Origin: Pseudoalteromonas sp.
GTDB taxonomy: Bacteria > Pseudomonadota > Gammaproteobacteria > Enterobacterales > Alteromonadaceae
Reading direction: 5' to 3'
DNA: 64,000 bases
Assembly: GCF_018402495.1 (NCBI RefSeq)
Contig: NZ_JAGYIU010000004.1
Coordinates: 186,001-250,000 of the forward strand
In this document: in pieces, positions 4,027 through 51,290 of the stretch
Position numbering within the stretch: the stretch's first letter is position 1
How the letters are laid out: each line of letters starts with the position of its first letter
Made by a program: the position numbers and the translations under genes
Notes under the pieces: generated by a model
Told to the model about the DNA's origin: nothing
The model's input: the letters and a program-made list of their open reading frames with translations, nothing else
Databases searched by the model: none

Positions 4027-4187
4027 GTAGGCGCGAGGGGAGAGGCGCGAGGTGCGAGGCGCGAGGTGCGGGGTGCGAGGCGCGAGGCGCGAGGCGCGAG
4101 GCGCGAGGTCTAGGCCCGAAGCCCGACGCTCGTAACCCGCAACCCGAAGCCCGTAACATAAAGTGCGCGGCATAAAGCCCCGCCTAC
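4027..4187. repeat. Heptamer array (GCGAGGC)n and degenerate CCCGNAN heptamers, bounded by inverted GTAGGC...GCCTAC ends
   Basis: gcgaggcgcgaggcgcgagg run (7-bp period) then cccgaagcccgacgctcgtaacccgcaacccgaagcccgtaa; right end gcgcggcataaagccccgcctac. Confidence 0.85.
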
Positions 4188-4221: not shown

Positions 4222-4269
4222 GCCTAGAACCTAGAACCTAGAACCTAGAACCTAGAACCTAGAACCTCG
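4222..4269. repeat. Tandem heptamer array (CTAGAAC)n
   Basis: cctagaacctagaacctagaacctagaacctagaacctagaacct, 7-bp period. Confidence 0.95.
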
Positions 4270-9686: not shown

Positions 9687-9743
9687 CTCGAACCTCGAAC
9701 CTCGAACCTCGAACCTCGAACCTCGAACCTCGAACCTCGAACC
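9687..9743. repeat. Tandem heptamer array (CTCGAAC)n ending 8 bp from the yacG stop
   Basis: ctcgaacctcgaacctcgaac..., 7-bp period, about 8 copies. Confidence 0.95.
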
Positions 9744-13569: not shown

Positions 13570-13626
13570 CCGAAGCCCGAAGCCCGAAGCCCGAAGCCCG
13601 AAGCCCGAAGCCCGAAGCCCGAAGCT
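13570..13626. repeat. Tandem heptamer array (CGAAGCC)n abutting the pilC stop codon
   Basis: cgaagcccgaagcccgaagcc..., about 8 copies, 7-bp period. Confidence 0.95.
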
Positions 13627-19452: not shown

Positions 19453-19568
19453 TAGGCGGGCTTTATGCCGCGCACTTTACGCTTTTTGTGACGGGCTAAG
19501 AGCTGCGGGCTTAAAACCTTTAACCTTTAACCTTTAACCTAAACATGCGCGAGGTAAACTCCCGCCTA
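19453..19568. repeat. GTAGGCGGG...CCCGCCTAC-bounded element containing an (AACCTTT)n heptamer run
   Basis: gtaggcgggctttatgccgcgcacttta ... aacctttaacctttaacctttaacc ... gcgcgaggtaaactcccgcctac. Confidence 0.75.
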
Positions 19569-19614: not shown

Positions 19615-19683
19615 CCGAACCCCGAACCCCGAACCCCGAACCCCGAACCCCGAACCCCGAACCCCGAACCCCGAACCCCGAAC
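19615..19683. repeat. Tandem heptamer array (GAACCCC)n
   Basis: gaaccccgaaccccgaacccc..., about 10 copies, 7-bp period. Confidence 0.97.
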
Positions 19684-27048: not shown

Positions 27049-27340
27049 TTTAGATGTTAGATATCAGAAATCAGATATTAGAAATTAGATATTAGATATT
27101 AGATATTAGAAATTAGAAATTAGATATTAGAAATCAGATATTAGATATTAGAAATCAGAAATTAGAAATCAGATATTAGAAATCAGATATTAGAAATCAG
27201 ATATTAGAAATCAGATATTAGAAATCAGATATTAGAAATTAGATATTAGATATTAGATATTAGAAATCAGATATTAGGAATTAGATATTAGATATTAGAA
27301 ATTAGGTATTAGAAATTAGGTATTAGAAATTAGAAATCAG
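27049..27340. repeat. Long (~290 bp) A+T-rich heptamer array of mixed words GRWATYA (GATATTA, GAAATCA, GAAATTA, GGTATTA...)
   Basis: agatattagaaatcagatattagaaatcag..., strict 7-bp register with interspersed variants. Confidence 0.95.
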
Positions 27341-27627: not shown

Positions 27628-28314
27628 GTGACTCAAGGTTTCAAAAATTCAGTTTTAGCATTACGTGCCCAGCAAATAAGTGAGTCTCGACGAGAGTTTA
27701 ATGCTCGGGGCGGCAAAATGAACCGCTGTGAGCAATGCTTAATAGCCAAGCATTACTGTATTTGTGAAGGCGCTCAGTACGCAAGCTGTGACGCTGCGGT
27801 TTGTTTACTAATGTATCATAATGAAAGTTTTAAACCGTCTAATACAGGGCGTTTAATTGCACAAATAGTCCCTGACAATTATGCGTTTCGCTGGGATAGA
27901 ACCTCCCCAGATCCTGCTTTATTAGCACTGTTGAGTAATGAAGAGTATCAACCTTTTGTGATTTTTCCTGCAGAAGATGTTGAAACAGATAGAGTAGTAA
28001 CGCAAGTGGAGCCTGTTGCAGGTAAAACGCCTTTATTTATATTTTTAGATGGTACATGGCGTGAAGCTAAAAAAATGATCCGTAAGAGTCCATATTTAGA
28101 CAACTTGCCCGTGCTTTCTATTAGTGCACAAAAGCTCTCAGATTACCGATTACGTGTAGCACCCCATGCTCACCAGTTAGGTACGGCAGAAGTGGCTATT
28201 ATGGTATTGGCATTAGCGAATGAGGTTGATGCAAGCACTAAATTAGAACAGCATTTTATTAAGTTTCGCGACGCCTATTTACTCGGTAAGCGTAACAAAG
28301 GCAGACCCGAATAA
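27628..28314 (+). CDS. DTW-domain protein, probable tRNA-uridine aminocarboxypropyltransferase (TapT/YfiP-like; GTG start)
   Basis: CEQCLIAKHYCICEG Cys motif and FLDGTWREAKKM DTW motif. Confidence 0.85.
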   Translation: MTQGFKNSVLALRAQQISESRREFNARGGKMNRCEQCLIAKHYCICEGAQYASCDAAVCLLMYHNESFKPSNTGRLIAQIVPDNYAFRWDRTSPDPALLALLSNEEYQPFVIFPAEDVETDRVVTQVEPVAGKTPLFIFLDGTWREAKKMIRKSPYLDNLPVLSISAQKLSDYRLRVAPHAHQLGTAEVAIMVLALANEVDASTKLEQHFIKFRDAYLLGKRNKGRPE

Positions 28315-28382
28315 AAAGCAGGGCACGAACATTCAAAAAACTGAGTTTAATGCTTGTTCATAGTTTGAATGTATATAATCTT

Positions 28383-28451
<69 letters not shown>

Positions 28452-28459
28452 TTTTCAGG

Positions 28460-28927
28460 CAAAAGAAAAGCGCGAACCATCTCTAGTCGCGCTTGCGGAA
28501 TCTTCTAACTTTGCTGCATCCTGCAATTGAACCTAATCAACTCCAATTTTTACGTTCCGTGTTATTACAATATTACTTTCTAGTTCTATGTAATATAGGC
28601 TATCCGGGCCTGTCTCCCTAAATCCTTGAAACATCCTGTACGGTAAAATCTATTACCTATCCTTATTGCACATCCGAGTACATTCCGTTTTTACAATTCC
28701 GTTGTGCTGCCTTAAAGGCCTGTCCGTTTTATTCCCTACCCTTTAGCAACAACTTTTCCGTGTTGTTATCCATTACGCATCATCCTGATGCTATCCTTTG
28801 TGCAACAATCCATTGCGATACTCATCCTGAGTCTGTCCTTAAATCCTTGTTATCCTAAAAACCAAACCTTGGTACTAGAGTAGTTAATCCGTTTCCATTT
28901 ACTCGGTAAGCGTCGTTGCTTATTTAT
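28460..28927 (-). ncRNA. csrB: CsrB-family regulatory sRNA (CsrA-sequestering)
   Basis: Minus strand carries about 24 GGA motifs in ~410 nt, many as AGGAT/AGGAC/CGGA in hairpin loops (e.g. ACTCAGGATGAGT, GCATCAGGATGATGC); no conserved ORF; terminator AAGCGCGA-CTAGAGATGGT-TCGCGCTTTTCTTTT; upstream TATAAT at 28934-28939. Confidence 0.88.
28461..28494 (-). terminator. Rho-independent terminator of the CsrB-like RNA
   Basis: aaaagaaaagcgcga...tcgcgctt on plus = GC stem plus TTTTCTTTT on minus. Confidence 0.85.
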
Positions 28928-28933
28928 AGGCTA

Positions 28934-28962
28934 ATTATAGAGAGTGATTTGCAGTAAATGTA
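28934..28962 (-). promoter_or_regulatory. Putative sigma70 promoter of csrB
   Basis: Minus strand TACATT-N17-TATAAT. Confidence 0.5.
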
Positions 28963-29179
28963 GGATAAAACCGTTTATGGTTTATATTCTTACAAATGAA
29001 ATATTTTAAAATTCCATAAAATACAAAAGCTTATTGTGTTTTTGGGGTGTTGTGCAGGGTGTTTTTACTCATTAGCTGTCATAAGCGTAAGAGATATCTT
29101 ACAAGGGTTTTCTTTTTTGGGCGTATTTATCACGAAGTTATTATATAAAGTGTGCACTTTTTGGTTCATCACGGTAAAA

Positions 29180-29213: not shown

Positions 29214-30218
29214 ATGAAAAAAACGCTCGCGCTAGTTGTTGGGTTAATTGCTTCAGCACCGGCTGTTGCAACAGATGTTGTGAATATTTACTCATTTAGA
29301 CAACCTTTTTTAATTAAACCTATTTTAGATGATTTTACACAGCAAACAGGCATCAAAACTAACGTGGTGTTTGCTAAGAACGGTTTAATAGAGCGTGTTA
29401 AGCGTGAAGGCAAACACAGCAGAGCTGATTTAGTGCTGACTTCTAATTTTAGCGCGTTAATTGAGTTAGAAGAACTAAACCTTACGCAAACCATAAAAAG
29501 TGAACAAGTTAATAATAATGTACCGGCTGCATTTCGTGATGGCGATGGTCAGTGGGTGGCGCTTACTAAGCGCGTACGTAATGTTTACTCTTCAAAAGAG
29601 CGTTTAGGCGCATTGCCTAATTTAACCTACGAAGATTTAGCAAAGCCGCAATACAAAGGGCAAATTTGTACCCGCTCTGGTAAACATCCTTATAACCTGG
29701 GGCTTGTCGCTTCTATGATTGCTCATCATGGCGAAGCACAGACAAAAACATGGCTTGAGGGCGTTAAAGCAAATTTAGCGCGTAAACCGCAAGGCAACGA
29801 CCGCGCACAAGTTAAAGCTGTTAAAGAAGGTTTATGTAATTTGGCCTTAGGTAACAGTTATTACTTGGGCAAAATGCTGCAAGATGAAGCACAAAAGGCA
29901 TGGGCTGAAGCCGTACATATTAATTTTCCAAATCAAACTGATCGTGGTTCACACATAAACGTATCGGGTGCGATTATTACAAAGTATGCTAAAAATCCCG
30001 AAAATGCCTTGAAACTTATAGAGTATATGACAGACAATAAGGCGCAAAATATGTATGCCTCGCTCAATATGGAGTATCCGGTTAAGCCAGGTGTGAAACT
30101 TTCTAGTTTGGTTTCATCGTGGGGGAGCTTTAAGGAAGACAGCTTACCGCTTGATGAAATTAGCAAATATCGTCCGTTAGCACTTAAGCTAATTGATGAG
30201 GTGAAGTTCGATCTTTAA
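29214..30218 (+). CDS. Fe(3+) ABC transporter substrate-binding protein (FbpA/FutA-like)
   Basis: Signal peptide; DVVNIYSFRQPFLIKPILDDFTQQTGIKTNVVFAK; RVRNVYSSK, SGKHPYNLGLVASMIAHHGE, NVSGAIITKYAKNPENALKLIEYM. Confidence 0.92.
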   Translation: MKKTLALVVGLIASAPAVATDVVNIYSFRQPFLIKPILDDFTQQTGIKTNVVFAKNGLIERVKREGKHSRADLVLTSNFSALIELEELNLTQTIKSEQVNNNVPAAFRDGDGQWVALTKRVRNVYSSKERLGALPNLTYEDLAKPQYKGQICTRSGKHPYNLGLVASMIAHHGEAQTKTWLEGVKANLARKPQGNDRAQVKAVKEGLCNLALGNSYYLGKMLQDEAQKAWAEAVHINFPNQTDRGSHINVSGAIITKYAKNPENALKLIEYMTDNKAQNMYASLNMEYPVKPGVKLSSLVSSWGSFKEDSLPLDEISKYRPLALKLIDEVKFDL

Positions 30219-50694: not shown

Positions 50695-50735
50695 AATTAA
50701 GGGTGAAAGGTGAAAGGTGAAAGGTGAAAGGTTAA
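50695..50735. repeat. Tandem heptamer array (GGTGAAA)n
   Basis: gggtgaaaggtgaaaggtgaaaggtgaaaggttaaa. Confidence 0.9.
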
Positions 50736-51260: not shown

Positions 51261-51290
51261 CAAAACCTAAAACCTAAAACCTAAAACCTT
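51261..51290. repeat. Tandem heptamer array (AAAACCT)n abutting the slmA stop
   Basis: caaaacctaaaacctaaaacctaaaacctt. Confidence 0.93.

Follow-up and report, generated by a model that had tools for sequence, protein, structure and literature searches.

In Pseudomonas, RsmX, RsmY and RsmZ combine an upstream box of the TGTAAG-N6-CTTACA type with GGA hairpins. For Pseudoalteromonas fuliginea, three Csr sRNAs have been published, Pf1, Pf2 and Pf3 (PMC9927453, PMC11882849), and the authors screened the transcripts of this species for GGA-rich RNAs (PMC11882849). Pf2 of strain BSW20308, which has 21 GGA and the neighbours D172_RS02375 and D172_RS02370, was shown to bind CsrA by EMSA, to have promoter activity with GFP fusions and to antagonise CsrA in glycogen assays, and a BLAST survey placed Pf2 matches in 45% of genomes (PMC11882849). 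Pf1 was described by its authors as being without significant sequence identity to Escherichia coli CsrB (PMC9927453).

Here, we describe an intergenic gap in a 64-kb stretch of Pseudoalteromonas DNA (hereafter the window). In our assessment, with a probability of roughly 0.93, the gap encodes an untranslated minus-strand RNA of ~465 nt, a Pf2-type Csr sRNA of Pseudoalteromonas that would serve as a CsrA sponge under BarA/UvrY. The finding is essentially known, Pf2 having already been published for a sister species. The two RNAs have in common the genus, more than 20 GGA, their own promoter and terminator and a conserved upstream box; they differ in that the experiments were performed in P. 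fuliginea, whereas the window sRNA is known from its sequence and was identified by elimination. Pf1 belongs to the same class and has the same type of GacA box (PMC9927453), but it lies elsewhere in the genome, flanked by a GNAT-like gene and a gene for a small membrane protein, and a comparison of Pf1 with the window sRNA found no full-length sequence similarity. E. coli CsrB (RF00018) and CsrC (RF00084) are alike in having multiple GGA in loops and a UvrY-controlled, CsrA-titrating architecture, yet sequence homology of the window sRNA to CsrB cannot be demonstrated, the RF00018 match scoring 24.6 bits against a gathering score of 71. The upstream box type and the GGA hairpins also resemble those of Pseudomonas RsmX, RsmY and RsmZ, compared with which the window sRNA is much longer (~465 nt) and carries more GGA; the Rfam models of these three RNAs are not among the matches listed for it.

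A GGA-rich gap between two plus-strand genes

The sRNA lies on the strand opposite to both of its neighbours. The convergent neighbour encodes a DTW-domain protein (tapT-like; 27628–28314, plus strand; PF03942, E 1.6e-54), whose homologs place the window in Pseudoalteromonas and upstream of which lies a lipoamide dehydrogenase-like gene; the divergent neighbour encodes an ABC transporter solute-binding protein (29214–30218, plus strand; PF13343, E 2.7e-16). In the gap at 28315–29035, a search of both strands found no ORF of at least 60 aa, in agreement with the preliminary description, which had reported the gap as ORF-free.

Counting triplets on the minus strand of 28460–28927 gave exactly 24 GGA, matching the earlier estimate of about 24. 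Per 468 bp, the 64-kb window contains on average 1.9 (plus strand) and 2.2 (minus strand), with a peak of 7 outside the sRNA; the chance value of 6–7 given previously is therefore correct for a uniform base composition, but the real local background is lower. Shuffling the segment itself yielded 10.8 ± 2.7 GGA when mononucleotide composition was retained and 11.8 ± 2.4 when dinucleotide composition was retained, the highest count being 20 in 1000 shuffles. The RNA has many more GGA than chance would give, many of them in hairpin loops, as is typical of CsrB-type RNAs. Across the window as a whole, GGA is strikingly scarce (260 on the plus and 300 on the minus strand; base composition predicts ~780). 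Either a glycine codon bias or a selection against sites for CsrA or resembling Shine-Dalgarno sequences might account for this deficit.

Covarying hairpins present GGA in their loops

Eleven hairpins of the sRNA show covariation. Their 58 pairs are 98.1% paired across the alignment, compared with 30–42% when slid, and 15 of the 58 are changed on both sides, compared with 6.2 in shuffles, which ignore the relatedness among the sequences, and 1–5 in slid controls, which retain it. Helix 1 (GAGTA...TACTC; 28878–28904, minus strand, as for all hairpins here) holds two GGA in its loop and is 97% paired, with two pairs changed on both sides. Helix 2 (ACTC-AGGAT-GAGT; 28820–28832) is 100% paired and keeps its loop GGA in all aligned relatives. 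Helix 3 (GCATC-AGGAT-GATGC; 28778–28791) is likewise 100% paired, with three pairs changed on both sides, but the GGA in its loop is itself retained in only 65% of aligned relatives. Helix 4 (AACAAC...GTTGTT; 28748–28767; 99% paired) presents GGA in a loop of variable length, and helix 7 (AGGC-CCGGATA-GCCT; 28597–28611), with three pairs changed on both sides, has a loop GGA that is 100% conserved. The inverted repeats with GGA in the loop that had been quoted before were located at 28832–28820, 28790–28778 and 28703–28693. The single-sequence fold of the sRNA is modestly stable (z −1.9).

Helix 11 forms the stem of an intrinsic terminator (AAGCGCG..CGCGCTT followed by TTTTCTTTT; 28461–28494, minus strand), with the stem at 28494–28468 and the T-tract at 28469–28461, which bears out the GC-rich terminal stem noted earlier.

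Promoter and upstream box

A TATAAT −10 element is present at 28939–28934 on the minus strand, as described before, and is conserved as CTATAATTA / CTATACTTA, predicting a transcription start at ~28927 (minus strand). The plausible −35 that had been proposed did not hold up, as no sigma-70 consensus −35 was found upstream of this TATAAT. The locus thus has the features of a noncoding intergenic RNA with its own promoter and intrinsic terminator, the −35 being weak.

Further upstream, we predict from the sequence a GacA/UvrY-type box, TGTAAGATATCTCTTACG, a near palindrome at 29086–29103 on the minus strand. The distance from this box to the start of the −10 element is 162–163 nt in all aligned sequences in which both are identifiable, and the sequence between them has diverged among relatives although the spacing is constant. 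The TGTAAG half-site pointed out in the preliminary description does exist at 28994–28989, but it is confined to the closest relatives and was rejected as a regulatory site; the relevant box is the one at 29103–29086.

Csr machinery and class assignment

The genome to which the window belongs has one csrA gene, a uvrY gene that adjoins uvrC and whose product is 68% identical to E. coli UvrY, and a BarA-type sensor domain in a frame of 953 aa, so that both CsrA and a BarA/UvrY system accompany the sRNA. The Rfam scan suggested earlier returned RF00018 as the best match (24.6 bits, E 1.2e-4); this is below the gathering cut-off, at which the window contains no such match, and formal RF00018 membership does not apply. 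When the whole genome was searched with RF00018, the sRNA locus was the sole match and the Pf1 copy of the same genome was missed; Rfam is therefore too insensitive for counting copies. The original reading of the locus as a member of the CsrB/CsrC/RsmZ class is nevertheless supported by the GGA-loop hairpins and their covariation, GGA conservation, the terminator, the upstream box and a genome that encodes CsrA, UvrY and a BarA-type kinase. Raw sequence can thus reveal a GGA-rich Csr sRNA that Rfam misses.

In the mechanism that we propose, BarA would phosphorylate UvrY (GacA), which would bind the TGTAAG-N6-CTTACG box ~165 bp upstream and activate a promoter whose −10 is good but whose −35 is weak. 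The sRNA would then expose upwards of 20 GGA, many of them within the loops of hairpins, and bind several CsrA dimers, a capture that would release CsrA-repressed mRNAs. For the species of the window, we infer transcription, UvrY control and CsrA binding.

The sRNA and its 3′ domain across the genus

BLAST detected the sRNA in 33 of 61 Pseudoalteromonas genomes. In eight genomes where it was not seen beside the DTW gene, it lies elsewhere or past the flank covered; one of these was inspected, and there the solute-binding protein gene still adjoins the sRNA. Relatives are 71–95% identical, and all 24 aligned sequences keep 22–27 GGA, a count above that of dinucleotide shuffles in every relative. 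Within the variable part of the RNA, conservation is 0.79 for GGA triplets and 0.44 for other triplets (0 of 10,000 resamples as high), so the selective conservation of GGA among relatives that the preliminary description had named as a test is indeed observed. In the first alignment (A1) the row of L007 was misplaced; it was replaced in A2, and A1 was used solely for the upstream region.

The most strongly conserved part of the RNA is a 3′ domain at 28463–28550 (minus strand) with the terminator at its end, in which ~70 of 88 positions are invariant in the 24 sequences. When 39 diverged Pseudoalteromonas loci were searched with a covariance model built from this domain (R1), the sRNA was matched next to the DTW-domain gene in 35 of them at E < 0.01, and 31 of these matches have E ≤ 2.3e-5; species with the sRNA at the same position by this model include P. 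luteoviolacea, P. rubra and P. piscicida. The 3′ domain is therefore recognisable across most of the genus where the remaining RNA has diverged. The same model gave no match in six Paraglaciecola loci, nor in three Pseudoalteromonas loci (L065, L067 and L068) that have no clear GGA block beside the DTW gene, nor on the corresponding strand of a fourth (L097), despite 13 GGA and a clear upstream box there. Among 18 diverged loci that we scanned, most have a TGTGAGATATCTCTCAC-type box ~150–230 nt upstream of a GGA-rich block, with distances of up to 380 nt in two of them, and the block mostly contains 13–30 GGA per 400 nt.

Going by the 3′-domain model, the sRNA is more widespread than the reported 45%, a result that is new here, and the ancestor of most of Pseudoalteromonas probably already had it. 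Model R1 could seed a new Rfam family. As far as the alignment indicates, the ~90-nt 3′ domain is conserved far past the needs of GGA hairpins and a terminator. That it has a second function, for example as a base-pairing seed or as a binding site for another protein, appears rather doubtful to us; if true, this would make the RNA a dual-function Csr sRNA.

Probable identification of the locus as Pf2

In P. fuliginea KMM 216, the published GacA box of Pf1, CGTGAGACATCTCTTACA, is found at another locus (L117), whose 25 GGA equal the published number. A Pf3 candidate of the same species (L164), with AAT-rich repeats and 9 GGA, again the published number, is flanked on one side by a yihI-like gene and on the other by a cytochrome c gene (gene names assigned by eye). 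The KMM 216 copy of the window sRNA (L033/L120; ~80% identity) differs in locus from both. Since Pf1 and the Pf3 candidate are at other loci, the locus beside the DTW gene is, by elimination, Pf2, and the window sRNA is almost certainly its ortholog. The KMM 216 copy has 23 GGA compared with the 21 given for Pf2 of BSW20308; this slight discrepancy could stem from the strain or from where the boundaries are drawn. The earlier statement that the RNA is unannotated may hold for the window, but the published Pf2 (PMC11882849) is almost certainly its P. fuliginea ortholog and is hereby tied to a defined position adjoining the DTW-domain gene. The genome of the window carries at least three Csr sRNAs, namely Pf1 (L110, C1:296240, 19 GGA), Pf2 (the window sRNA) and Pf3. 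Its Pf3 ortholog (L165, C3:933002–933480) shares 86% identity with that of P. fuliginea and has AAT-rich spacers between the GGA. A whole-genome search by GGA-spacing pattern was too noisy for a census, yet revealed the Pf3 candidate.

The difference between 23 and 21 GGA is also what would favour a fourth Csr sRNA, distinct from Pf1, Pf2 and Pf3. We consider this improbable, as Pf1 and Pf3 are located elsewhere with exactly their published GGA numbers, a screen of P. fuliginea for GGA-rich transcripts would hardly have overlooked an RNA with 23 GGA, and the BLAST range of 33 in 61 genomes fits the 45% published for Pf2. Less probable still is that the GGA-rich sequence belongs to a long UTR or to an antisense transcript of a neighbouring gene, with no free sRNA. 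The neighbours do lie within 150–300 bp, and the 5′ end of the sRNA shares a 17-nt identity with the antisense of the DTW gene. However, an RNA that runs opposite to both neighbours, is equipped with a promoter, an upstream box and a terminator of its own, and occurs away from the DTW gene in several species fits poorly with such a transcript, and most relatives lack the 17-nt identity.

A purely compositional or repeat-driven origin of the GGA richness, with no CsrA function, would be suggested by the G/A-rich character of the segment and by the 7-bp tandem array directly past it. This we hold to be very nearly incompatible with the data: GGA counts beat dinucleotide shuffles in every relative, the triplets are selectively conserved, the hairpins covary, and the array is outside the RNA, with two of the three closest relatives having almost none of it. 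A Pf2-type Csr sRNA is thus our preferred reading of the locus.

Repeats in and around the locus

The 17-nt identity mentioned above is a perfect direct repeat, ACGCTTACCGAGTAAAT, at 28897–28913 in the 5′ end of the sRNA and at 28277–28293 in the antisense of the 3′ end of the DTW gene. Base pairing or duplication was considered as an explanation, but the repeat has been lost from L005 and is not preserved in 11 other species; we therefore regard it as a chance match between two stretches that are each conserved independently.

Immediately past the sRNA terminator, at 28384–28451, lies an array of 9.7 GCTGACC units, whose length varies among close relatives (one or two units only in L004 and L005); elsewhere in the genome, several more sites carry GCTGACC arrays. 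Among the perfect tandem arrays of period 4–15 in the window, 11 of 12 have period 7 and the remaining one period 14. They include arrays at 4075–4108, 4223–4267, 9687–9743, 13570–13625, 19515–19540, 19615–19683, 50702–50732 and 51262–51289, and their period-7 units differ (GCGAGGC, CCTAGAA, CTCGAAC, CCGAAGC, AACCTTT, CCGAACC, GCTGACC, GGTGAAA and AAAACCT). Period 7 is also that of 17 of the 18 arrays in 77 related loci, and heptamer arrays have been described in Beggiatoaceae and Cyanobacteria (PMC4679880). The intergenic region between lpd and the DTW gene (27059–27340) contains 20 copies of a 14-bp repeat, AGATATTAGAAATC, which in turn includes 7-bp sub-arrays (ATTAGAT).
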